Origin: a virus
Length of the DNA stretch: 21,684 nucleotides
Strand: one strand, 5' to 3'
IMG/VR virus record: IMGVR_UViG_3300037847_001640
Location: 10,270-31,953 of that record
The notes under the pieces were generated by a model. The model searched no databases, was not told the DNA's origin, and saw only the letters and a list, made by a program, of their open reading frames with translations. A program made the position numbers and the translations under genes. Shown here piece after piece: positions 2,513 to 16,817 of this stretch. Position 1 is the first letter of the stretch; each line of letters opens with the position of its first letter.

Positions 2513-2686
2513 GATATTAAGACTATTAGTTTAATAATGGTATATACATTATCTTCCGCATTAAGCATAAGTCCCTTAGAGGTGTATAAAATGCCGGTTA
2601 GTTTAGTAAAAGATTTATTAACTGTTCATGGTGTAATTGAAACGATAAAGGGCGAAGAACTAGAAAAGGCAAAAAATAGACGGTGA
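2480..2686 (+). CDS. Tail assembly chaperone, downstream frame (T part of GT fusion)
   Basis: This frame encodes 68 residues if read from ATG 2480, which overlaps the upstream stop as ATGA. It is more likely translated mainly as the C-terminal 69 residues of a -1 frameshift fusion with the preceding gene (189 residues in total). Independent initiation looks poor: the nearest SD-like AGGAGG ends 16 bases before the ATG, too far for normal use but suited to stimulating the slip. The peptide is helical and basic at the end (KAKNRR), with a segment SISPLEVYKMPVSLVKDL typical of the short helical T domain that contacts the tape measure. It ends at TGA 2684-2686, which lies inside the SD of the tape measure gene. 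Confidence 0.75.
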   Translation: MIRKALKGKPSDIKTISLIMVYTLSSALSISPLEVYKMPVSLVKDLLTVHGVIETIKGEELEKAKNRR

Positions 2687-2691
2687 AATCA

Positions 2692-4698
2692 ATGAGCGAA
2701 CTCGACAAGACTGAAAGAGAAATCGAAAGTCTTGGAGATACATTGGCTAGTTTAGAAAAGGTTTCTTTTCGTTCCGGTATTGAATTCAAAGGTCTATTCA
2801 AAGAAATAACTAATGCCGCTAACTCAATAAATGGTGCAGGTAAAAAGTGGACTATTTTTAGCAGATTAGTTTCGGGAACTCCTTTATGGAAAGTCCAAAA
2901 CTATCTAAGAGGAGCATTGGGTGTTCTGTCCGAATTTGCTGAAGCCTCTAAGGAAAACACTAAGGCTAGAAATGAGCAAAATGATTCTATTGTTAAAAAT
3001 ATAAAACAATATGAAACTTTGAATGCCGCAATGAAAGACACTATGGTAGCGTATGAAAACTATCAAAGAGGTTTAGCAGAAGAAGCAGACATGAATATTT
3101 TGAAAGAACAAATACAAGATACTGCGGCATTTCAAATAGCACTCAAGGCAACAGGTGACGAAGCCTATGCTATGGCTAAAGCATACGATAGTGTTACAGA
3201 AAAACACAAAAAAATGCGAAAAGAAGAAGAAGAAGTCATAAAAATGGCAAAACAGGCTCATGCTTTTGATGAAGATAGATTGGTATTAGCAGAAAAACAG
3301 GCTAGAAAAAGAGCAGAAATGCTAGGCATGGATAAAAAACAAACTAAGCGTGAAGTAAAGTTTGCCGTCAAGGATGAAAAACAAAAGATGGCCAAAGAGC
3401 AAGAGGGTCTTGCTAAGGATAGTAAAAAAGAGGGCTTTGAAAATTTAAGAAAGAGTTTCTTTGACCCTAAACAATTCAAGGCTCTTGCTTTACCTGTTGC
3501 TCCTTTAGTTGGTATGTTTAAATTAGCAAAGAATAGAAAGAAATATCAACAGAAAATATTGAATTTTAACAACATGATGCAAAAGTCAATACTGCCTAAT
3601 TTACAAAGAATGATATTATTTGTTATATTTGGAGCAATAGCGTTCTTATTGTTTGTAAAAGCCGCATATGAAATATTCAAAGTATTAGAAGAAATGGGGA
3701 TGATAGCCGAAATAAAAGAATTCCTTATAGGATTATTTAGCGTGGTCATGGACATATTCAGTATAGCGTTTGCTTTTATTAGCGGGGACTATGAGAAAGC
3801 ATTTGAACTGATACCACCTATGCTGACCAAGATTAAAGACCTATTATTAGAAGGAGGGGCATTATTAGTTGCATTAGCATGGACTACATTAACAGAAGGT
3901 TTTGGTTTAATAATAGATTTCTTTGATGCCTTTGTTAATGATGCTAGTTTTAGAGAAGCAGTAATAGATTATGCTGTTCAAGCGGGGATGTTAGTAGCAG
4001 GAGTTTGGATGGCTAAGACTTTATTTGCTATGGCACTACAATTACTTGCTACTTACGCTCTACCAATAGCGGTGTTTGTTTTGGTTTCTGCTTTCTTAAT
4101 AGCATTGTATGGCAAATATAAAAAAGAAATAAACGACATGCTACTTAAAATAATTAGAGAACCTGTTGAGTTCGTTGCTAAACTATTAGATTACATTATG
4201 AGTGGTCAGTTCCTTACAGATATTCTTAACACAATAAAGAACTTTGCTAAAGACTTTGTTTTCAAGGTAAAGATATTCAAAGGAATAAGGAAAGCCTTTG
4301 GTAAAGTAAAAGACAGGCTTGCTGGTGGAGCGAAGAAGGTAGCGGGGGGCTATGATAAGTTAAGTGACGAGCAAAAGAAAAAGGTAGATGAGATTAATAA
4401 AAGGCAAAAAGCCTTACTTACAGGAAACATAAAGGGTATGTTCGCAAATGGAGGTATAGTTTCTGCCTCCGGTCTACAATTGGTTGGAGAAAAGGGGCCG
4501 GAATTAGTTAGGCTACCTGCGGGAAGTAGAGTTCATAGTAATGCTGAATCAGCAAGAATGGGAGATACTAACATCAACATTACTATAAACGCCAAAGATA
4601 CTTCCGATGCCGAATTGAGAAGAATAGCAGACCAAGTTGGTAGAATGATAACAAATAAAATCAATAGGAGTTCTTCTTCTAGTGGATTTGTGAGGTGA
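2692..4698 (+). CDS. Tape measure protein
   Basis: The start is ATG 2692, 5 bases after SD GGTGA (2682-2686), giving 668 residues. A GTG at 2683 in the same frame lies within the SD and is rejected. The protein sets tail length and later leaves with the DNA. The first ~270 residues are charged and heptad-like, consistent with coiled coil. Residues ~303-330 and ~440-475 are strongly hydrophobic (e.g. MILFVIFGAIAFLLFVKAAY) and likely membrane-spanning on ejection. Near the C-terminus (~587-617) is the widespread tape-measure signature NGGIV...LVGEKGPELVRLPAGSRV, followed by a Ser-rich end. At roughly 0.15 nm per residue the tail would be about 100 nm. No lysozyme or peptidase domain is visible. 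Confidence 0.93.
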   Translation: MSELDKTEREIESLGDTLASLEKVSFRSGIEFKGLFKEITNAANSINGAGKKWTIFSRLVSGTPLWKVQNYLRGALGVLSEFAEASKENTKARNEQNDSIVKNIKQYETLNAAMKDTMVAYENYQRGLAEEADMNILKEQIQDTAAFQIALKATGDEAYAMAKAYDSVTEKHKKMRKEEEEVIKMAKQAHAFDEDRLVLAEKQARKRAEMLGMDKKQTKREVKFAVKDEKQKMAKEQEGLAKDSKKEGFENLRKSFFDPKQFKALALPVAPLVGMFKLAKNRKKYQQKILNFNNMMQKSILPNLQRMILFVIFGAIAFLLFVKAAYEIFKVLEEMGMIAEIKEFLIGLFSVVMDIFSIAFAFISGDYEKAFELIPPMLTKIKDLLLEGGALLVALAWTTLTEGFGLIIDFFDAFVNDASFREAVIDYAVQAGMLVAGVWMAKTLFAMALQLLATYALPIAVFVLVSAFLIALYGKYKKEINDMLLKIIREPVEFVAKLLDYIMSGQFLTDILNTIKNFAKDFVFKVKIFKGIRKAFGKVKDRLAGGAKKVAGGYDKLSDEQKKKVDEINKRQKALLTGNIKGMFANGGIVSASGLQLVGEKGPELVRLPAGSRVHSNAESARMGDTNINITINAKDTSDAELRRIADQVGRMITNKINRSSSSSGFVR

Positions 4699-5415: not shown

Positions 5416-6558
5416 ATGTATGATGTGCTTATTGGAAAACAGCGAGGGTTAATCTTCCCCGTTATGTGTAATGGTCATGTTAGAATAGATTATAGCGATA
5501 ACACCAACTCATCAACTGACAATATAAATTATGGATTATTTTCCCACGCAGGAAGTTTTACTTTTGAAGCCATAGTTACCCCGTATGATATAAACGGAGC
5601 AGGTCAATGGTCTACATCGGCAAATTCGATAGGAGTAGAGACAACAACAGAAACACAAAAAGTAATGCCTTCTGTAACTAAAACTCAAAGCGGTGCTAAT
5701 GGTAATGATGATTTTAGAAGTGAACGCTATCTAAATGTTACAGATAGATTAACACATGAAATGATGCTTTTTTCTAACTCTAAATTTTCTATATCTTTAG
5801 TAAACTCAACTACACATAATCAAAACCAACCCGCAGAATATAAAATAAAAGCGGTGTTAGATTCACAAGCAACTATTACAGATTTACCCGTAATAAAAGC
5901 CACTTCCGGTTTTGGTTGGTCTTACCCTACAACTCCTGCAAATCCTTCTTTAACTCCATTAGTCATTGATGGGTTTGATGCTGATGGAAGAATAACACAT
6001 TCTTTTGCAGGAACTACAGATGCTTCTAGTAGTGGAGTTACAATAAACATAGATGACACTACTAAGTTCCATGTTAATCAAGAAGTATTCTTGAAAGACG
6101 GTTTTAATTATACTTCTTTAGGAACTATTGCTTCAATAAACACAGGTGTTAGTTTTGATTTAGCAAACGCACCTGCTAACACAATATCCACATCAACAAA
6201 GATATATGTTCACTCTTACAAAGATGCTTGCTACATAAACAACCAATTCCACATAGCATGCTCATACAATGATATATCTAAAGAGGTTAGATTATTTTTA
6301 AATGGTATTCTAGTAAAAGTAAATACTCTAACTATTAATGATTTTATTATGCCACAAGAAGACTCATTTATTGGTAATCACCACAATCCAAGTTTCTCTA
6401 CTGGCAAAGGTAGCACCACTCATAACAAACAGTTTATGGGAGAAATGCATGAAATGTCTATGGTAAATACGGTTAAGAAAAAGTTTCTAATAAATAATTT
6501 ACTTCCTAATTTAAACGACACATTGTTCTACTTTAGATTTGAGGAGGTAGATGAATGA
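5416..6558 (+). CDS. LamG/concanavalin-like tail protein with an inserted beta module
   Basis: This 380-residue protein starts at ATG 5416, 3 bases after GGTGAT. Residues ~43-58 (HAGSFTFEAIVTPYDI) look like the first strands of a laminin-G/concanavalin jelly roll. Residues ~275-350 look like its second half: FHIACSYNDISKEVRLFLNG, then a strand FIGNH and FMGEMHEMSMVN. These halves match the usual LamG pattern 'sftieawv ... WHHVAvtYd...l.lYlNG.l...iG.....f.G.idEvriyn'. Between them, residues ~190-266 contain a separate beta module like those in the next gene (VTINIDDTTKFHVNQEVFL). A glycan- or surface-binding role at the tail tip is inferred. The end overlaps the next gene as ATGA (6555-6558). 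Confidence 0.65.
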   Translation: MYDVLIGKQRGLIFPVMCNGHVRIDYSDNTNSSTDNINYGLFSHAGSFTFEAIVTPYDINGAGQWSTSANSIGVETTTETQKVMPSVTKTQSGANGNDDFRSERYLNVTDRLTHEMMLFSNSKFSISLVNSTTHNQNQPAEYKIKAVLDSQATITDLPVIKATSGFGWSYPTTPANPSLTPLVIDGFDADGRITHSFAGTTDASSSGVTINIDDTTKFHVNQEVFLKDGFNYTSLGTIASINTGVSFDLANAPANTISTSTKIYVHSYKDACYINNQFHIACSYNDISKEVRLFLNGILVKVNTLTINDFIMPQEDSFIGNHHNPSFSTGKGSTTHNKQFMGEMHEMSMVNTVKKKFLINNLLPNLNDTLFYFRFEEVDE

Positions 6559-9500
6559 CATCAACAGTAGTTGCCTTTACTCCATCTAAAGACACACTAA
6601 CCTTCGATAGAGCAAGCACGACTAACAGTAATGCTAATCTAACTGTATCGCCAAATACCAATGGGTTATTTATTGGAATGGTTGTTACAGGAAGTGGCAT
6701 ACCCGATGGAACAATAATAACTAATCTCAATGCGACAACTGCTTTCTTAAGCAAGTCGGCTACTAATTCTACAACTGCCGATAGGACATTTACTAAGTCA
6801 GCATACGAAGTTCCTCCTAATCCGTTGTTGTGTGCAAGCACATTATCCCCGACTAGTAGTGGTTCAGTTGTAGATAATTTTGGTGCTGTAATAATAGAAG
6901 AAGGTTCGGGGAGCGTAGTATTGACTCCTATAGGCAGGTCACAAATCGCTAATTGTAATGTTACAATAGGTAGTGAAAAAGTTACTTTGTCTAGTGGAAA
7001 TACTAACGCATTGTATATCGGCCAAAGCGTAACAGGAGTTGGCTTTACAGGTATAACTGCTACAATCAAAAGCATACCATCAAGCACTACATTTCATTTA
7101 ACGGAAAAGGCGAGTGCTACTGCTACCAATACAACATACACTTTAGGGCTAGAACATCAAAATTTACAAAACACAAGAGGCACTTCTATAAAATGCTTTG
7201 ACGATTTAACTCAAACAGGAATAAACATCAACAGTATTAATCTAAATACACACTATTTGTTTGCTATGATTCATTCCGATGATAGTTCTAAACATCATTT
7301 TGTTAGAGTTAAAGAAAAACTAAACGATGATGTGAATGGAGACTCTTTTGAGTTTGAGCCAAAATTAGGAAATGAAGTAAGTAAGGGAGTTAAATTCAAA
7401 TTATATTCTACTCCTATCCCTACTGATAAAACTATAGTGGCTGTTGGTCTTGGAATAAAAAATAGTGTAGGTCATAGTGCGGGTTTATCAAGACCACTGT
7501 TTTATTTCTTCGATGAAAATACAGATAAGAGAAATCAACTTGACCATAACAAAAAATATAATATTTTATATTCGGAGTTGGATTTCTTTTCAGCAGGGAC
7601 AGACACATTAACAACAACTAGTTTCTTCACCACTATGCAAGACTTTGGTTTTGAAGTCATTGATTACGGTAGATTTTCTTTGAGAACTAGACTAGTAGAT
7701 AGGTTAAGAGAATTAGATAGCCCTATTGTTTCTACTACTAATGAAGGAGGAACACCGCTTCCTGCTTATACTCCATTTAGTAGAGATAATTGTTTTGGTA
7801 ATGCTAGAAGAGATGATGATGACACCGTAACAAATGAAGCAACTCAAAATTATATTGGCCCTATTAGATATTTGTCATATGGCTTTTCTAAAGATAAAGC
7901 AAATTTAAGTTACAATGTAATAGACCAACAATTGTATGAATCTATTGGAGCAAAAGGTAGCCTAGCAGAAGTAAAAATAGCAGACCCTTATAGAATAGTG
8001 ACCACTAAAATGAAAGACAATGAACCTCTTAGAATTAGACAACAACTGTTTACTGGCGACTTTAATGAATTCAAATCATTTGGAGCAACTATTTTTTCAT
8101 TTGTTGGAGGTTCTGTGTATAACATAACAACAAGTCACGACTTAAACAGTTATCTAAACGAGGGAGATGAAGTTAGAGTTGGTAATAGAATAATGGTAGT
8201 TTCGGGATTAGGTGCTTTTAGTAATGCCGCACAAACAATTTCATTTACAACTTACCATAGACTAGAAACAGAATCCGAGTTTACTGTAGGAAGTTTACCG
8301 ACATTAGCAAATGGAAGTTTATTAGAAAGAAGGGCTTATAACAAAAAGGATAAAACTTTACTAACGGATTTTCCATTGATAGATAATAGACAAGTGGACT
8401 TATATGTAAAATTATTATCGAAAGAATTTTCCTTTTTATATGCTAGAGTTACTTCTATTGATGCTGTAAAAAAATTAATGACTCTAAGTTTTTCAAATAA
8501 AGCATATTATGATTCTGATGGTAATACTAGCGATGAACACGAATATCATGCTCAAGGAAACATGCTAGATTACATGAATGGTCAATATGCTATTCTAGTA
8601 GAAAAAATAGACGGAACTGTTGAAAGAATAGATAACTACAAAGAAAATGGATTAACACAAGTTAAGTTAGCAGGTAGAAGTAAAATAAGACAGTTAATAT
8701 CTCCCATAATAAATAAGAATACTTTATTTTCTCAAGATGTAATCTATTCAACTCAAAGCCCGTATAATAAATTATCTCATCTTCTTACTTCCTTTACTTG
8801 TGAATTTGATAGTAAAACATTAACTACTACGAGTAGTATAACTTTAACAGCAGGAGACAAGGTTCATTTAAAACATGCTTCGGGTATGATGGGATATATA
8901 GGAGAAATAGCAACAACAGCAACAGGAACTAGTTTTACATTAGTGGATAAAGCAAGAGCGCAAGGAACTCTTCTTGAAGGATTCAAAGAATCGAATAAAG
9001 GATTTATGTTAAATAAAGCATTAGCAACTAATACTCTAGTAGATTCTACTACTAGTCTAAGCGGTGCATCGGATAAAGGGCTGTTCTTTGATTCGGGAGT
9101 AAAGATAACTTCTTCCGGTGACGAAGGAGATATTTTAATCGGCAGTAGTGCAAGCGATAATGAAGGAGCAGTGGGGTATTTCTTAAGTGACATTGCTAAC
9201 ATGAAAAGCGATTCTCACTTCCAAACTATACTAGAGGATGAGAATGGGAATAGTGAAACCTTTGATACTGTGAACACTCTTATTGATTTTGAGATAGTAG
9301 ATACTAAGTCTGCCGGTGAAAATAAAGGAACTATTGTAACTATTGCCCCTTACAATCCATTGACATTGGGTAGAGTTGATATTAACCACGCCAACACTCA
9401 AGATACTGATTTTACTTTAGTTGGTAGGCTAACACATAATATGAGTCTTGCTAGAAGATTTATAGAAGTTGATTCGGATTCTGCTATGTCTTCTGTTAAT

Positions 9501-12500
9501 AATATTAGAGGAGAAAGAAACCTACATCTAAAGCCTCTATTTGTAAATGGTAAATTTTTAGCAAATGTATTACAAGTTGAAAAGGATGTCAATGTGACGG
9601 TAAATGCAACAACATTAGGCGTTGATGCAACATTAACAGTAGATACAAGTAAATTATCAGTAGGCATGGTAATAGATGATACCACACATTCTAACATTCC
9701 TTCATCCACTACTATAACATCCGTAGGTAGTATTAGCGTTGAAATGAGTAATAATGCTACAGGTGCTAGTGCAAGCCCTACTGAATTTTCATTGGCTAGC
9801 AACCAATGTAGAATAATGTTAGACCGAGAGGTTGGTGTTCATACTTTTACGAGAGCATCAATAGTTGCAGGTTCTCCTGTAATAAGAAATGTAGATACTG
9901 AAAAGTTATTTATTGGCATGCAAGTGGTAGGCACAGGTTTAGCAGTTGGAACTACTTACTTAATTGAAAGCATGAACAAAGAAGAAAGAACGGTTACTTT
10001 AGATAATAATGCAGAACTTACTATCAATGTAACAACACTCTTTACTGCTTTCTTTGTTAGTGGAATGTCAATAGATAGATTAGAGGGACATCACAATCAA
10101 GACGATGTGAGGGAAACTACAAAGTTTACACACGAATTAAATCTGTTAAATGGTGGTCACTTACACGGAGGAAAGAATATTGCATTATTACACCCACAAG
10201 TTAATCAAACTAATGTAAATAACATAACGAGCATATTAGATTTCAAGTTGGAAGCAGAACATCCTATGTTGTATAATAGCGGAACTAGGGCGCATGGGCT
10301 TTCAACTAGTGCTAGAGTTGATAGATTAGGAAGTTATCAATCTCAATTTGGTTCTTCTAATTATAGATTGATTAATTTAGAAAAAGGTAACTACAACAAG
10401 AGTAAGCATTTGATATTTGACTCGGATGATACTATAATGTATGAAAATGAAACTAGTAAAATAAAATATTACGCTAGTGCATATAGATATAATGCAGGAC
10501 AGTATATTTTTGGTATTCGTCAAGATAATATAATAGGAACAGATATAAGTCAAAGGAACTACATTGGTGAAGGTAATATAAGAACTACTAGTGGTAGTTC
10601 TATAGTCACGATAGATGTCTTGAAATTCATTTCGGGAAGCACGAATACTCTTTTTCATAATGTGTTTAGGGTTGGTCAAAAAGTAGTTAGTCCTGATATT
10701 CCTAGTGATACTTTCGTTGGTGCAATTGTAGGATTTGGTAATGCGGGTGACTCGTTATTACAGATGAAACTTGTAGATTTAGATGGTAACGCTGTAAATG
10801 CAACATCCACTACTAATACTTCAACAGCAACATTCTTCAAGTTTGACAACAAAAGAATATTAGAGTCAAGGGGATTTTTACCTAGCGTCGGTGATAGATT
10901 TTTTGAGCCAACTACACTAGAACAAAACACTGGCAATCCACATAGTTTAGAATACTTTAGAAGAGGAGGAAAGCCTATCACTTTTTTTACTCCCTTTGTT
11001 CACGATAAACTAACACTATATAAAAAAACAGACTATCCTAACTTAAGAGGTTCCGATAATAATAAAACTAGACTCATAAACGCTCATCAATATAGAGATA
11101 AGTTTGAACAAATAGACCCTAAAGTTGCTAGAATGTTTTTATTTAGTAATAGTGATTTATTACCTTATTCTTCTACAAGAAAAGATAGTTTGTTAAACAT
11201 AAATAAAACTAGAGATATAACAAAGTATTCTTTATTAACATTAGGAGAATTAAGTCTTAGCACACGCTCGGATTTGAAAGAAGCCTCTAGGGGAATAACA
11301 AATACGATAACTGCCTTTGATGACTCTTACAGACATCATAATATTCTTTCTGCCTTTGATGGAAAACAAATAAATAAACTAAGAAGATTCAGCATTATGA
11401 GATTAACCGAATTAGTTGTGGATGTATTCTATAATCAATTTGACCCCGAAAACATACCGGAAAATACTAACAATATAGGCACTGTAACCAACTATCCTAG
11501 ACATATACTTGTAGGGCTTAATGATGGTGGGGGGACGGCTAAACCTATTGGTATAGGTTCTGTTAGCGGTAAGGTCATCAATACTGTTGATAATACAGGT
11601 AGTGCGGCAACTGTTGATAATTTAAACCCCGAAGATATATTAGTAGACAGGGGAGGTAGATTTATTGGAGTAGTGGCTAGTATAGGAACTAACACTATAA
11701 CATTAGTAGACAAGGCAAATAGAACTGTCTTGGATAGTTCTAACAATGCCGGTTTCTATAAACCTACAGTTAATCAAGCAAATGGAAGTTCACCCAATAT
11801 TGATTTTATGCAACTTTTTCATGTTGCTCATAATAGGACAAATTTGGCTGTAGAAGAAACTATTTCTTGTAATATAGTAAATGGAAGCCAAGTTGTGACG
11901 GTAGTTAATGCAGGTGACATGGATAAGATATTTATTGGCATGACAGTTACGGGAGGCGGGATAGGTGCTTTGACTCAATATGTGCAATCCATGAACTTCT
12001 CTAACAACACTTTCACATTACGCTTACAGGCAACAACCACATCAAACGGTGTAAACTTGACTTTTACAAATCGTAGTGGAACTGCAACCATTTCGGGCTA
12101 TAATACTGACAATGATTTTGTTCAAGGTAATGGTAACATTAATCCGATGCAGTATGTTACTATGCGAGGATTAGCGAGTGATGGAACTGGTTTTCCTAAT
12201 AACTATGTAGCGGCATTTACTCCACAAGGTCAAACGGCTGGAAGTGGTGCAAATAGAGGAGATAACGATAGGGGTTATGGAGGAAATAATGCAAATTTTT
12301 GTGACACTACCTTTTCGGATGTATTTGGCGTAAATGCTATGGGAGGAGAAGTAGCAGGAGCAAACCAAGATAATAGCATTGTTTTACCTATTGTTTTATC
12401 TAGTCAAAATTCGTCTTTTAACTCTTGGCTAGCAAACCAAACAAGAGATACTACTATTAGTAAATTATCTATTGAATCTCGGTTTGGTAACACTTTCCCA

Positions 12501-15059
12501 CCAATAATGGAGATAGCAGTTTCACCTAGTTCAAAAGGCTCAACTCAAAACTTTCATGGAGCAGGAAAACACAATGCCGTTAATACAGGTGCCGAGAATA
12601 CCATTAATTCAAGAAGAAACTATCAAGGTTCTATTCCTATATTTTTAGATAGATGGGGAATAACAGGCGGTGGTGGTGCTAGAGTAGATACTGGCATGGC
12701 CGCTACTAAGGTGGCAAGTTTTAGAAGCATAGACATAGATGGAACCGATAGACAAGAGGTTAGATTTGGAATTACTACAGCAACCACCACTAAAAGCACA
12801 ACAGGGACTATTTCTAGTTCAGCAGTAGGTTTTGCTAATAAAGTAGTAGGAGCAGATAATTTCAATGCAACTACAATTAGACGCTATCAAGATGATGCTG
12901 ACGGTGTGTTTGGTGGATTCAAACCAACTTTGAAAATTGATGTAGGCTATACTGCATCTTGTGTTTTTAACACGACAACTATTACAGCCGCTAGATTTGA
13001 AGACACGAATGATGAATTAGCGGCAGATGAAGAATATACAAGTTTTGGAGGAGATGACCAAATATATCTTTATGTAGATAGCGAGAAAGTTCCATTTTTT
13101 ACTAGAACACAACAAAGAACTGGTGGTGTTAGCCCTCCATTAATTCATATGTCCAATAACGCTACAAGTGCGGGAACGGATTTAAATGTTATATTTAGCA
13201 GAAATAGAGTAGGAACTAAAAAAGCAACTAATGGAACAGATGTTACTGTTCTAGCATTTACTGATTATAATATTACATCACAAAAAAATAGTTTCGCAAA
13301 TGCAGACGGAGTAGTTAGAACAGATAATCCTTTATTCTTAAGCCATGTAGACTTGACTGGTTGTTATCTAGTTTCGGAAGGAGTAAAAATAGACGATACT
13401 GATGATGATGAAAACCCAATAGTTAGAAATTTGGGCGTTACCATCGGTAACAATGTTGCGGAGGATGGTTCAAGAACTATGAATGGTTTTACGCAAAATA
13501 GAGCCTCCATAGATTTAGGAACTCCTAACCATATATTATATGTTATATCGCACGAAATAGACACAACTAGAAAGGACAGAACTCATATTTTGACGGTTAG
13601 TGGAAATTTCCCTTCACCTGTAGCGAGTTCTGTAGTCGCAGGTAGGCTTAAGACTTTTAGAATAATGCAACCTAATCATACTTGCTTTCACGATTTTAGC
13701 CCAAAGAAAATTAGATTGAATCAGTTGTCTTCAAGTTACACTAAAAAACCTAGAGAAGATGCAACTTATACCACAATAAACAATTTCATGTTTGCAGATA
13801 GATTAGGTAGTAGAAGCGACGAAGGGAACAATGAGGCGGTTCTTTCAATGTATGTTGTTGTAGATACTGACGGACAAACAGATGAAAGTGATATTGTTAT
13901 TAGAAACCCTACAAGTATGAGAAATAATATAATGACAGAAGGCAAATTAAAAATGAACCTTAGCGATGGAGATAATAATAACTTTACGACTGTTGAATTT
14001 AGTGATGCAGGAAATGATATAGGCTTTGAGATGACTCTTGAAAGACAAAAAGAACTCTTAGGTGTAGTTTCTGTTTCCGAAACTATGGATGTTTTAGTTG
14101 GAACTAATGATAGTATAGATGCAAATAGGGCGATTATAGGTTCTAGCGTTTCTATTGCATCCGATACTGATAATCTAATTAATGAATTACTAGAAGAGAA
14201 TGATGTAGACTTCACCCAAACAACTACTAATTATCCGTTTATTGTAGCACCTAACTTTAGGGGAGTAGATTTATTTTCAGCAATAAAATTCTTAATGACT
14301 AAAAAAGATAAGACACTAATAGAAGAGGGAGGCTCTTTTAAAGTAAAAGAGGAAACTGAACAAGACTTATCTTCAAGAGTTTTCTTTAACACCTTAGATA
14401 ATAAAACAGAAATATTTTCTTACAGTAGAGAGAAGAGTGAATTTGATTTATTTAATGAAATAGAAGTGTTTGGAAAGTTTCACAAAGGAGTTAGAAAAGA
14501 ACTTAGAAGTATTAAGAAGAGAGGTAAGAAGACTCTTCAAGTTTTCGAGAATGAACTCATTACACAAGAAGATGTAGATAAAAGAGCCTTTCAGTTATTG
14601 AAGTTACATAATGATGAAAGTTTTGGTCTTCAATTAAATGTTGGACATAAAGGAATATCTCAACTAAGAGTTGGTGATGTAGTTACTGTTGAAATACCAC
14701 AAGAAGGTATTTCGAGAAGTGAATTTATTGTATTAGAAATACAACATAATCTAACAGGAACTATGGATTTAGAATTAGGTAGTTATACCAAAGGATTAGA
14801 GGATAGATTTGCAGAATTAGCAGTAGCGAATAACGCTGTAAATAATAAAATTAGGGAAAATGAATTTGATGATGTTGCACAAAAGTTTGACATAGCGAAG
14901 ATGGCTAAGATAAAACCAATAAAATTCCTAGTGAGAAAATCTACTGTTCCTGCCGGTGCTTTTGCATTGAATACTAGCACACAAACACTAAATACAAACA
15001 CCGCCACATTAAACATAGGAGTAACAACAGTCACTACATTAGTGGAGGAAGAGTTTTGA
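6555..15059 (+). CDS. Giant tail hub / central tail protein with repeated beta modules (2834 aa)
   Basis: ATG 6555 follows a GGAGG SD 7 bases upstream and overlaps the previous stop. Residues ~2370-2780 resemble the tail-hub fold of gp27/GpD/late-control proteins. In particular, SQLRVGDVVTVEIPQEG followed by FIVLEIQHNLTGTMDLELGSY matches the typical end 'l.pGd.v.v..p...g.f.V..i.H.......t.l.lg'. The other ~2300 residues are Thr/Asn/Ser-rich beta domains. A short module recurs at about residues 15-82, 127-197, 755-805, 1012-1080, 1095-1170, 1336-1430, 1671-1735 and 1769-1840. Examples of its core are LFIGMVVTGSGIPDGT, LFIGMQVVGTGLAVGT and IFIGMTVTGGGI. The hub would plug the tail tip, with the modules reaching toward the host surface. 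No catalytic peptidase or glycosidase motif was recognised. Confidence 0.8.
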   Translation: MTSTVVAFTPSKDTLTFDRASTTNSNANLTVSPNTNGLFIGMVVTGSGIPDGTIITNLNATTAFLSKSATNSTTADRTFTKSAYEVPPNPLLCASTLSPTSSGSVVDNFGAVIIEEGSGSVVLTPIGRSQIANCNVTIGSEKVTLSSGNTNALYIGQSVTGVGFTGITATIKSIPSSTTFHLTEKASATATNTTYTLGLEHQNLQNTRGTSIKCFDDLTQTGININSINLNTHYLFAMIHSDDSSKHHFVRVKEKLNDDVNGDSFEFEPKLGNEVSKGVKFKLYSTPIPTDKTIVAVGLGIKNSVGHSAGLSRPLFYFFDENTDKRNQLDHNKKYNILYSELDFFSAGTDTLTTTSFFTTMQDFGFEVIDYGRFSLRTRLVDRLRELDSPIVSTTNEGGTPLPAYTPFSRDNCFGNARRDDDDTVTNEATQNYIGPIRYLSYGFSKDKANLSYNVIDQQLYESIGAKGSLAEVKIADPYRIVTTKMKDNEPLRIRQQLFTGDFNEFKSFGATIFSFVGGSVYNITTSHDLNSYLNEGDEVRVGNRIMVVSGLGAFSNAAQTISFTTYHRLETESEFTVGSLPTLANGSLLERRAYNKKDKTLLTDFPLIDNRQVDLYVKLLSKEFSFLYARVTSIDAVKKLMTLSFSNKAYYDSDGNTSDEHEYHAQGNMLDYMNGQYAILVEKIDGTVERIDNYKENGLTQVKLAGRSKIRQLISPIINKNTLFSQDVIYSTQSPYNKLSHLLTSFTCEFDSKTLTTTSSITLTAGDKVHLKHASGMMGYIGEIATTATGTSFTLVDKARAQGTLLEGFKESNKGFMLNKALATNTLVDSTTSLSGASDKGLFFDSGVKITSSGDEGDILIGSSASDNEGAVGYFLSDIANMKSDSHFQTILEDENGNSETFDTVNTLIDFEIVDTKSAGENKGTIVTIAPYNPLTLGRVDINHANTQDTDFTLVGRLTHNMSLARRFIEVDSDSAMSSVNNIRGERNLHLKPLFVNGKFLANVLQVEKDVNVTVNATTLGVDATLTVDTSKLSVGMVIDDTTHSNIPSSTTITSVGSISVEMSNNATGASASPTEFSLASNQCRIMLDREVGVHTFTRASIVAGSPVIRNVDTEKLFIGMQVVGTGLAVGTTYLIESMNKEERTVTLDNNAELTINVTTLFTAFFVSGMSIDRLEGHHNQDDVRETTKFTHELNLLNGGHLHGGKNIALLHPQVNQTNVNNITSILDFKLEAEHPMLYNSGTRAHGLSTSARVDRLGSYQSQFGSSNYRLINLEKGNYNKSKHLIFDSDDTIMYENETSKIKYYASAYRYNAGQYIFGIRQDNIIGTDISQRNYIGEGNIRTTSGSSIVTIDVLKFISGSTNTLFHNVFRVGQKVVSPDIPSDTFVGAIVGFGNAGDSLLQMKLVDLDGNAVNATSTTNTSTATFFKFDNKRILESRGFLPSVGDRFFEPTTLEQNTGNPHSLEYFRRGGKPITFFTPFVHDKLTLYKKTDYPNLRGSDNNKTRLINAHQYRDKFEQIDPKVARMFLFSNSDLLPYSSTRKDSLLNINKTRDITKYSLLTLGELSLSTRSDLKEASRGITNTITAFDDSYRHHNILSAFDGKQINKLRRFSIMRLTELVVDVFYNQFDPENIPENTNNIGTVTNYPRHILVGLNDGGGTAKPIGIGSVSGKVINTVDNTGSAATVDNLNPEDILVDRGGRFIGVVASIGTNTITLVDKANRTVLDSSNNAGFYKPTVNQANGSSPNIDFMQLFHVAHNRTNLAVEETISCNIVNGSQVVTVVNAGDMDKIFIGMTVTGGGIGALTQYVQSMNFSNNTFTLRLQATTTSNGVNLTFTNRSGTATISGYNTDNDFVQGNGNINPMQYVTMRGLASDGTGFPNNYVAAFTPQGQTAGSGANRGDNDRGYGGNNANFCDTTFSDVFGVNAMGGEVAGANQDNSIVLPIVLSSQNSSFNSWLANQTRDTTISKLSIESRFGNTFPPIMEIAVSPSSKGSTQNFHGAGKHNAVNTGAENTINSRRNYQGSIPIFLDRWGITGGGGARVDTGMAATKVASFRSIDIDGTDRQEVRFGITTATTTKSTTGTISSSAVGFANKVVGADNFNATTIRRYQDDADGVFGGFKPTLKIDVGYTASCVFNTTTITAARFEDTNDELAADEEYTSFGGDDQIYLYVDSEKVPFFTRTQQRTGGVSPPLIHMSNNATSAGTDLNVIFSRNRVGTKKATNGTDVTVLAFTDYNITSQKNSFANADGVVRTDNPLFLSHVDLTGCYLVSEGVKIDDTDDDENPIVRNLGVTIGNNVAEDGSRTMNGFTQNRASIDLGTPNHILYVISHEIDTTRKDRTHILTVSGNFPSPVASSVVAGRLKTFRIMQPNHTCFHDFSPKKIRLNQLSSSYTKKPREDATYTTINNFMFADRLGSRSDEGNNEAVLSMYVVVDTDGQTDESDIVIRNPTSMRNNIMTEGKLKMNLSDGDNNNFTTVEFSDAGNDIGFEMTLERQKELLGVVSVSETMDVLVGTNDSIDANRAIIGSSVSIASDTDNLINELLEENDVDFTQTTTNYPFIVAPNFRGVDLFSAIKFLMTKKDKTLIEEGGSFKVKEETEQDLSSRVFFNTLDNKTEIFSYSREKSEFDLFNEIEVFGKFHKGVRKELRSIKKRGKKTLQVFENELITQEDVDKRAFQLLKLHNDESFGLQLNVGHKGISQLRVGDVVTVEIPQEGISRSEFIVLEIQHNLTGTMDLELGSYTKGLEDRFAELAVANNAVNNKIRENEFDDVAQKFDIAKMAKIKPIKFLVRKSTVPAGAFALNTSTQTLNTNTATLNIGVTTVTTLVEEEF
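15044..15048 (+). promoter_or_regulatory. SD site (GGAGG) that sets the TTG start at 15056
   Basis: GGAGG stands 7 bases before TTG 15056. There is no ATG or GTG nearby in this frame, and the TTG overlaps the hub stop codon as TTGA, so this site supports an unusual start codon. Confidence 0.6.
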
Positions 15060-15407: not shown

Positions 15408-16817
15408 ATGCCAACAGAAGCAAACCCGCACCATTTTTCTAACCACACAAAAGATGATGTTGCTATTGGCCAAATAGAAGATGCAGTAGATTTTCCACAT
15501 ACAGGGTTAATTAAGGCTTTAAGTTTAGGAATGAAAGGGAACTATGTAATTAACGATTCAGCAACAGGCTTCGATATAACTCAAAGTTCTTCATCAAGTA
15601 GTGCTGTTGTTGTAGAAGCAGGTAAAATATTTAGAGATGGTATTCTAACAGCCTCTACTGCTCAAACTACATTTGCTCAAAGTGACTTTAACAATACTAT
15701 AAACGCACATCATTTATTGGTGGTGGCTTCTAATAATTCTGTAGTTATCCGCAAATTCGGAACAGGCGGTATTTACGGAAGCGCATCAAATGTTGTAAAT
15801 AAAATACCTCCATATACAGAAGGAGATACTATAATAGCCATAATTAGTTTTACTGCTGATGGATTTAATGATATGAAAGTTCAATATCTAACAACAGGAA
15901 AGGTTGCTAATGGTGTAAGTATTGGCTATAACAATTCGGGCTATGACCAAACAATGTCTATCACAGGGGCTAGTGGAAGAACGACACTCTTATCCGAAGA
16001 AAATCAAGTGGTGTTAAAACTTAATGGCACTGGTTCTTCTAATTTGTTTACAGTTACGGATAGTGCAGACCAAACACAATTTGCTGTAAAAGGGGATGGC
16101 ACATTAGAAACAGACCTTACTGCTAGTAGAGCATTAGTAACGGATGCTAGTAAAAACATTTCAGTGAGTTCAGTAACTTCTACTGAATTAGCATTATTAA
16201 GTGGTGCGGCTTTTGGTATTGGTAACAATAACATATTAAGAGCCAATGCAAATGTAGTTGATAATGACTTCTTGAGAGTTGATGGCACACAAATAGAAGG
16301 TAGAAGTGCAAGCGAATTAGCATCCGATATAGGAGCATTGACAGGAACATTCGGCATAGCAAATAATAACATATTACAGGCTAATGCCAACTTAGCCGAT
16401 GATGATTTCCTAAGAGTAGATGGAACACAAATAGAGGGTAGAACTGCGGCTCAAACATTATCGGATATTGCCGCTATGCCATTAGCAGGTGGAACATTTA
16501 CAGGAGCAGTTACAGTTGATACAGGTCAAACATTTAGAACTCCTAGATTACCAATGGTTTCTGTTTCGGCAAGCACTACTTTGACAGAAGCAACTCACGC
16601 AGGAGCATATCTAAAATGTGCAGGAAATGTAACTTTACCTGCTACTTCGACAGAAGGAGAACATTATACTATTCTAAATGTAACAGGTGGTAATATTACT
16701 GTTGGAAGAAATGGTAATAATATTAATAATGCGGCTTCCGATATTACAGTTGCTACTTTTAACGGGGTAACTTGTATTGCTATTAGCGGCAATGATTGGA
16801 TTGCATTAGGAGTTTGA
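15408..16817 (+). CDS. Tail fibre protein with tandem repeats
   Basis: This 469-residue protein starts at ATG 15408, 8 bases after SD GAGGT. The N-terminus is short, with a His/Asp-rich start (PHHFSNHTKDDVAIGQIEDA), followed by a long Ser/Thr/Asn/Gly-rich beta region. Two tandem 46-residue repeats begin at Phe269 and Phe315, each with NNNIL.ANAN..D.DFLRVDGTQIEGR; this DxFLRVDG pattern is common in trimeric phage fibres. A short MPLAGGTFTGAVTVD motif, also typical of fibres, follows the repeats. The C-terminus ends in a compact beta region closing with CIAISGNDWIALGV. No intramolecular chaperone or lyase domain is obvious. It probably forms a host-recognition fibre. Confidence 0.82.
   Translation: MPTEANPHHFSNHTKDDVAIGQIEDAVDFPHTGLIKALSLGMKGNYVINDSATGFDITQSSSSSSAVVVEAGKIFRDGILTASTAQTTFAQSDFNNTINAHHLLVVASNNSVVIRKFGTGGIYGSASNVVNKIPPYTEGDTIIAIISFTADGFNDMKVQYLTTGKVANGVSIGYNNSGYDQTMSITGASGRTTLLSEENQVVLKLNGTGSSNLFTVTDSADQTQFAVKGDGTLETDLTASRALVTDASKNISVSSVTSTELALLSGAAFGIGNNNILRANANVVDNDFLRVDGTQIEGRSASELASDIGALTGTFGIANNNILQANANLADDDFLRVDGTQIEGRTAAQTLSDIAAMPLAGGTFTGAVTVDTGQTFRTPRLPMVSVSASTTLTEATHAGAYLKCAGNVTLPATSTEGEHYTILNVTGGNITVGRNGNNINNAASDITVATFNGVTCIAISGNDWIALGV
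16212..16487 (+). repeat. Two tandem 138-bp (46-codon) repeats inside the tail fibre gene
   Basis: Unit 1 spans 16212-16349 and unit 2 spans 16350-16487, in phase with the gene. Of the first 31 residues, 26 are identical between units, including the run DFLRVDGTQIEGR; similarity fades toward the end of each unit. They look like a duplicated fibre-shaft segment. Confidence 0.85.

Follow-up and report, generated by a model that had tools for sequence, protein, structure and literature searches.

A viral tail hub likely decorated with a promiscuous barrel insertion domain

The stretch of DNA analysed here (the window, 21,684 bases) covers bases 10270–31953 of a viral IMG/VR record of 31,953 bases (IMGVR_UViG_3300037847_001640) and raises two questions about a very long gene: what is a 2834-residue tail protein made of, and is the segment that recurs along it a fixed part of the protein or a domain that comes and goes? 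An initial annotation, made from the sequence, had read the product as a tail hub built from a reiterated beta module, with at least eight loose copies preceding a C-terminal hub-like domain, and had suggested that a single domain, mobile or duplicating, serves in several virion proteins, perhaps for adhesion to the host surface. The open reading frame (ORF) at 6555–15059 on the plus strand is real and encodes 2834 residues, as claimed. It lies within the tail module, downstream of the tape measure, in the gene order tail tube, tape measure, LamG-like protein, hub, fibre:

296–1933, tail tube (PF18906)
2683–4698, tape measure (phrog_19914 and phrog_1538)
5416–6558, plus strand, LamG-like tail protein of 380 residues, upstream of the hub (Laminin_G_3 at E 0.0034, below the Pfam cut-off)
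6555–15059, plus strand, tail hub ORF of 2834 residues (ORF translation)
15408–16817, fibre (phrog_8147)

In gene content and genome size the virus resembles magroviruses, which infect Marine Group II archaea, and it probably belongs to them: size, PolB and ERCC4 nuclease fit the published magroviruses, which are described as tailed-virus genomes of about 90 kb encoding PolB and an ERCC4 nuclease (PMC10160649). The window itself encodes an ERCC4 nuclease (PF02732, E 5.8e-13). Twelve records were searched further, namely the 32-kb record that holds the window and 11 relatives of 70–96 kb picked for their length. PolB was matched in 11 of the 12, the sole miss being the window's own record; a chaperonin of the Cpn60/TCP-1 family was present in 10 of 12, and a PCNA_N domain in none of the 12. 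In most of the 11 records behind L083, L148, L131, L154, L136, L041, L044, L146, L090, L105 and L060 the PolB matches fall in two separate open frames (about 550–587 and ~300 residues), and the polymerase appears split. A small GTPase-like protein of 220 residues (MMR_HSR1 at E 0.0022, below the Pfam cut-off) is encoded upstream of the window in the same record (L013:3533–4192). It lies inside the structural gene cluster and recurs at 71–97% identity in all 11 other long records, or 12 of 12 with its own; a GTPase amid virion genes is unexpected.

Hub fold and scaffold

Homologues were collected by three scans of viral contigs, which returned 11, 80 and 70 overlapping loci, pooled as 154 loci. 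These yielded 70 complete, non-identical hub ORFs of at least 1900 residues, incomplete ORFs being left out. A non-redundant set of 51 hubs, mutually less than 90% identical and 2034–2898 residues long, was retained, in which the other 50 members are 27–89% identical to the window protein. At two loci the hub ORF is found in pieces, through sequencing error or a real split: a single stop divides it into 1202 and 1611 residues at L007:3690–12167, and pieces of 469 and at least 572 residues occur at L100:7870–11022.

Sequence searches with the complete hub gave neither whole-length recognition by Pfam or PHROGs nor, by phmmer, a PDB relative. No match at E 0.01 was obtained by tblastn against a phage collection, either with the hub or with one module copy (L134:1537–1755), and a scan of the hub C-terminus against a genome contig collection returned 36 pattern stretches, none of them a relative. 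The identity of the protein emerges from the fold of its C-terminus. A structure model of the final 539 residues, mediocre in quality (overall pLDDT 66.2), gave 42 PDB matches at E<=1e-3 by Foldseek, nearly all to tail hubs, baseplate hubs or VgrG. Model residues 238–451 match tail and baseplate hubs by Foldseek with E down to 5.3e-9 and align by VIA-align at Z 8.8–10.5 with the proteins of JBD30, Chi, lambda, Mu and others; the tail hubs of T5 and of Haloferax virus HFTV1 match the same residues. Among the 51 hubs, PHROG families annotated as ‘tail protein’ were found in 28 (phrog_1887) and in one (phrog_400), and Pfam YQBQ in two. Foldseek and VIA-align bear out the C-terminal hub-like domain proposed at the outset as a gp27/gpJ-type fold, and we hold with high confidence that the tailed virus uses the product of 6555–15059 as its central tail hub. 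Three regions of the protein can be set apart from the modules:

7167–9434, plus strand, conserved N-terminal scaffold, residues 205–960 (near-full occupancy in the 51 homologues)
12102–13304, plus strand, fast-evolving region, residues 1850–2250 (dN/dS 0.21–0.38 in seven pairs, lower occupancy)
14151–14792, plus strand, gp27/gpJ-type hub domains, residues about 2533–2746 (Foldseek, VIA-align, phrog_1887)

The scaffold at 205–960 was matched by no PHROG in more than one of the 51 members and by no PDB sequence below E 0.6. Region 1850–2250, which in the window protein evolves fast and is free of modules, is a candidate for host contact.

Module copies in the window and their predicted fold

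The hub was compared with itself by HHalign, using an alignment with 13 close homologues, windows of 85 columns and off-diagonal matches only. This self-scan gave 57 matches at E<1e-3 against none in 278 column-permuted windows, which places the hub repeat far beyond chance and establishes the profile similarity between copies on which the initial annotation depended. Five hub segments match one another. When an iterated HMM was run over the 1968 ORFs of the 154 loci, 235 domains passed iE<1e-3, and the same ORFs reversed yielded none. Within the window, five hub segments score 43–57 bits and one segment of the LamG-like protein scores 40 bits, compared with a maximum of 7.7 bits over 100 shuffled hubs. 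Searching the record with an alignment of the modules recovered these six locations again. The copies are as follows:

6013–6198, plus strand, copy in the LamG-like protein, residues 200–261 (iE 1.3e-13; profile–profile probability 93%)
6600–6800, plus strand, copy 1, site A, hub residues 16–82 (HMM 20–79; iE 1.1e-18; self-scan)
6936–7148, plus strand, copy 2, site B, hub residues 128–198 (HMM 133–194; iE 1.9e-15; self-scan)
9588–9800, plus strand, copy 3, site I, hub residues 1012–1082 (HMM 1018–1078; iE 4.7e-15)
9843–10058, plus strand, copy 4, site J, hub residues 1097–1168 (HMM 1101–1163; iE 8.9e-16)
10659–10814, plus strand, probable degenerate copy, site K, hub residues 1369–1420 (profile–profile E 1.4e-5)
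11850–12068, plus strand, copy 5, site O, hub residues 1766–1838 (HMM 1771–1837; iE 1.6e-14)

The segment at site K scores 7.3 bits from the window sequence alone, inside the shuffled range, and is clearer in the relatives L105 (iE 2e-7) and L022; on this sequence similarity it is a probable sixth copy. The count of at least eight hub copies is consequently reduced to five that are sure and one that is probable, the remaining candidates falling among the shuffled scores (752–804 at 0.9 bits, 1707–1724, and 2197–2211 at 2.4 bits). Nor is the hub built from the module in any literal sense: modules are about 61–75 residues long and rich in S, T, G and N, and the six copies together cover ~400 of 2834 residues, about 14%, the remainder being conserved scaffold. 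The related module expected in the LamG-like protein is there, as one copy at residues 200–261; the major tail protein, named as a further possible carrier, holds no module detectable by HMM (top score 4.0 bits; 100 shuffles reached 4.6) or by profile–profile comparison (probability 1.7%). A second, different short similarity links hub residues 757–803 with 1683–1724 at E 0.0033, slightly beyond the permuted maximum of E 0.012.

One structure model of the module was built from an alignment of 109 copies, with copy 4 (window 9831–10064) as lead sequence. The model has six strands and a pLDDT of 89.1, and the module is predicted to be an independently folding, six-stranded beta barrel. No Pfam family, Ig-like or other, was matched by any of the 109 copies at E<=0.01; PHROG matches were to families of unknown function (up to 27 copies) and to virion structural families (up to 24). 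The Bridgette decoration protein (8eci_1) matches in sequence at E 1.9e-6 over residues 12–76 and in structure by VIA-align at Z 8.9 (rmsd 2.4, 71 aligned). Residues 102–181 of the Mystique tail tube (9N71) follow at Z 8.3 over 75 residues, and the inserted barrels of tailspikes at Z 6.9 (LKA1, 4ru4) and Z 7.0 (7w1c); residues 115–139 of 8BKE give a weak sequence match at E 0.37. Unrelated barrels (Uba1, V/F-ATPase) fill many VIA-align rows at Z 5.8–6.8. Foldseek found nothing in the PDB at E<=0.001 (best 2.7e-3) and seven matches among viral predicted structures, all phage proteins, among them a tail collar protein and one from an Arthrobacter phage. Of the 50 VIA-align rows listed none bears the name of an Ig domain, which says nothing against an Ig fold.

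Presence and absence of the module among relatives

Across the 51 non-redundant hubs, 106 modules occur in 32 proteins, at 16 places in the scaffold and with 0–7 per protein. The module is not essential, given that the other 19 hubs have no detected copy. Carriers and non-carriers separate cleanly by length at ten of the 16 places, namely C, D, E, G, H, I, J, M, N and O, where even the shortest carrier exceeds the longest non-carrier. Site H spans 66–71 residues in its five carriers and at most 14 in the other 46 hubs, site E 85–86 residues in carriers versus at most 12, and site I 76–86 versus at most 25. Sites A, B, F, K, L and P are less clean, with long segments in some non-carriers; in L052, site A holds a visibly related segment that went unscored, and some apparent absences may be diverged modules. 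L009, L010 and L012 lack copy 5, at site O, as a complete unit and carry a 73-residue copy at residue 794 instead; this added module lies inside hub segment 757–803.

These presences and absences were placed on a scaffold tree (1710 columns, quick IQ-TREE, unrooted; 38 of 48 inner branches starred, some long branches). The ten clean sites require at least 15 presence/absence changes, and all sites but K require 25. Sites I and J are adjacent and both present in 13 of 13 members of one clade; sites C, D and M each occur in a single hub of the 51, and the nearest relatives of those copies are elsewhere. Among 141 copies, the nearest relative sits at the same site for 124 and elsewhere for 17, from which it follows that vertical inheritance dominates, with occasional jumps. 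The module in the L044 fibre is 83% identical in amino acids, and 75% in nucleotides, to that at hub site E of L040, and the L045 copy at site M is 70% identical to a site N copy.

Four other virion proteins carry the module among the relatives; orthologues were counted as non-identical ORFs, some of which lie in loci that overlap on a single contig. The protein of the head–tail (connector) cluster, encoded upstream of the tail genes, has it in 8 of 32 (372 residues without, 434 with), and a 170-residue protein in 5 of 34 (169–170 residues without, 239 with). Tail fibres carry it in 3 of 42 and LamG-like proteins in 29 of 77, at two different places. The LamG copy at ~190–260 looks constant in most members, proteins with and without a detected copy being of similar length; the second place (72–143) is an added unit. 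The LamG-like proteins of L008 and L108 are one pair that differs by a module. In alignments some inserts are precise between otherwise closely similar genes. The fibres of L043 and L044 are 96.6% identical in DNA outside the insert, L044 having a module where L043 has a few residues. Because the tree is unrooted and the L044 fibre module is also present in the fibres of L048, L051 and L120, the direction of gain or loss is left open, and the L043 fibre may have lost a module rather than L044 having gained one. At the module-free site of the L043 fibre a short DNA repeat (GATGATTTAGGAA) occurs twice, ~24 bases apart, and may be the footprint of a deletion or an insertion. Inspection by eye for a transposon-like signature at three hub sites, in the L043/L044 fibre pair and in the L008/L108 LamG pair gave no obvious target duplication. 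The suggestion of one mobile or duplicating domain across the virion is thus supported by whole-unit presence and absence at ten hub sites and by the four other virion proteins, and its support is stronger in the relatives than in the window itself.

The module also extends beyond the hub family. A degenerate DNA pattern of the core motif retrieved at least 120 viral contig stretches. All 120 listed hold an ORF with the HMM domain, partly by construction, as the pattern was drawn from the motif; at least 137 proteins match at iE<0.01, the reversed ORFs giving none at iE<1e-3. A hub homologue is absent from the fetched stretch in 112 of the 120 listed. Ten carrier proteins scanned against PHROGs include head structural proteins (phrog_399, phrog_29386), a head–tail adaptor (phrog_442) and a tail collar fibre. 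Two very large proteins with an open 5' end, both on the minus strand, hold seven copies in at least 4718 residues (L239:470–14623) and eight copies in at least 3512 residues (L248:891–11426); at the best places their module DNA is 71–76% identical to the L044 fibre copy over 209–233 bases.

The modules at sites A, B, I, J and O, taken together, have dN/dS of 0.22–0.45 in seven pairs, as against 0.03–0.20 for scaffold and hub segments in the same number of pairs (one hub value undefined, dS being saturated). The modules are constrained yet looser than the scaffold, which suggests that they are kept but tolerant of change.

Explanations and comparison with known systems

Taken as a whole, the observations are likely best explained by a hub scaffold decorated with a promiscuous barrel insertion domain. 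That the module has the anatomy and the history of an insertion domain is very likely; as relatives have acquired or dropped it whole, it has the look of a reusable component of the virion surface. Small self-folding barrels would be plugged into loops of a conserved hub scaffold, and ordinary recombination would carry copies from one virion gene to another and from virus to related virus. The modules may persist since they face outward, where they could make weak multivalent contacts with surface polysaccharide or contacts that stabilise the particle, as related barrels do on tailspikes and capsids.

Among the competing readings, chance resemblance of S/T-rich beta segments, that is, convergent low complexity in place of homology, has very little to recommend it. 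The module is rich in S, T, G and N like many tail proteins, and many of the PDB rows at similar Z are unrelated barrels; the empty permuted windows and reversed ORFs, the gap between shuffled hubs and the five copies, and identity of up to 83% between copies in different genes all speak against it. Chance or low complexity is ruled out for the five hub copies and may yet apply to the sixth (1369–1420). More substance attaches to a static history, in which an ancestral hub underwent tandem or segmental duplication long ago, its copies have since only diverged or decayed, and the apparent gains are losses or missed detections. This history would account for the 124 of 141 copies closest to a same-site copy, for the adjacent sites I and J shared by all 13 members of a clade, and for absences that are missed diverged copies, as in L052. 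It has difficulty with copies in unrelated proteins (connector-cluster, 170-residue, fibre and LamG-like), with the single-hub sites C, D and M, whose nearest relatives lie elsewhere, and with the ten sites at which non-carriers lack the stretch, where pure loss needs many independent exact deletions; it is disfavoured and appears improbable.

What the modules do is a separate matter. They could be mobile, outward-facing parts that serve stability, spacing or assembly and not host binding, a reading that we regard as quite possible: among solved structures the highest Z belongs to a capsid decoration protein and a tail-tube domain, the other carriers include head–tail and capsid-type proteins, and by dN/dS the modules are held less tightly than the scaffold. 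Against a purely structural role, the modules and region 1850–2250 are alike in dN/dS, as expected of surfaces that meet the host, and similar barrels of tailspikes help bind the capsule. An adhesive role, proposed by analogy, is plausible because the fold resembles that of inserted barrels which, in some tailspikes, assist binding to capsular polysaccharide (PMC10653864), and is put forward tentatively. A broader scenario, which we consider unlikely, would have an unnamed domain family circulating horizontally and inserting, exactly and in frame, into the outer loops of nearly every kind of structural protein (capsid-type, head–tail, tube, hub, fibre) in viruses of marine archaea and in many other tailed viruses, its copy number and sites tuning glycan stickiness and co-infecting viruses sharing a common pool of DNA.

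Most known cases of domain shuffling in virion proteins come from bacteriophages, in their receptor-binding proteins and endolysins (PMC10684548). Here one small barrel, unmatched in Pfam, can be traced among related viruses, present in some and missing from others, at many exact positions along a conserved tail-tip protein and in several further virion proteins. Pairs that are nearly identical but for a module make in-frame domain insertion directly testable, and, if the module binds glycans, it would offer a handle on host finding by uncultured marine archaeal viruses. In an open-access library no paper was found on 8ECI or on accessory-domain gain, and a prior description of this exact module was not established there.

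Promiscuous Ig-like domains of phage structural proteins were reportedly described by Fraser et al. in 2006. Ig-like decoration domains are also present on the tail tubes of JBD30, T5 and lambda (PMC11445458). Like the module, phage Ig-like domains are small beta domains found on many classes of virion protein and present or absent among relatives; the module, in contrast, lacks a Pfam Ig match, and its model is a six-stranded barrel with barrels as top structural matches.

The best match by both sequence and structure is the capsid decoration protein of the Arthrobacter phage Bridgette (8ECI chain 1), in which the domain makes up most of a capsid protein of 124–126 residues, whereas in the window's virus group it is found inserted in tail and connector-cluster proteins. 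The inserted domain of the tail tube of the Acinetobacter phage Mystique has a fold in common with the module; it belongs to a different virion protein, and its sequence was not matched below E 1 when the PDB was searched by profile.

The barrels of tailspike depolymerases (KP34gp57, 8BKE; LKA1 gp49, 4RU4; phi297 gp61, 4RU5; AP22 gp54, 4Y9V) are, like the module, six-stranded and inserted. In KP34gp57 the barrel is inserted at 103–203 and juts from the beta helix, its residues R145 and D151 contribute modestly to capsule degradation, and its horizontal acquisition was proposed by the authors (PMC10653864). In these depolymerases a single barrel completes the catalytic pocket of a beta-helix enzyme, whereas hubs of the window's group carry up to seven copies, with further copies in other virion proteins and no enzyme seen.

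Finally, the likeness to T4 gp27, Mu gp44, lambda gpJ, T5 pb3 and the HFTV1 hub (9H4P) resides in the C-terminal fold of the window hub. Compared with those proteins, the hub fold of the window sits at the C-terminus, behind ~2300 residues of scaffold with inserted modules.
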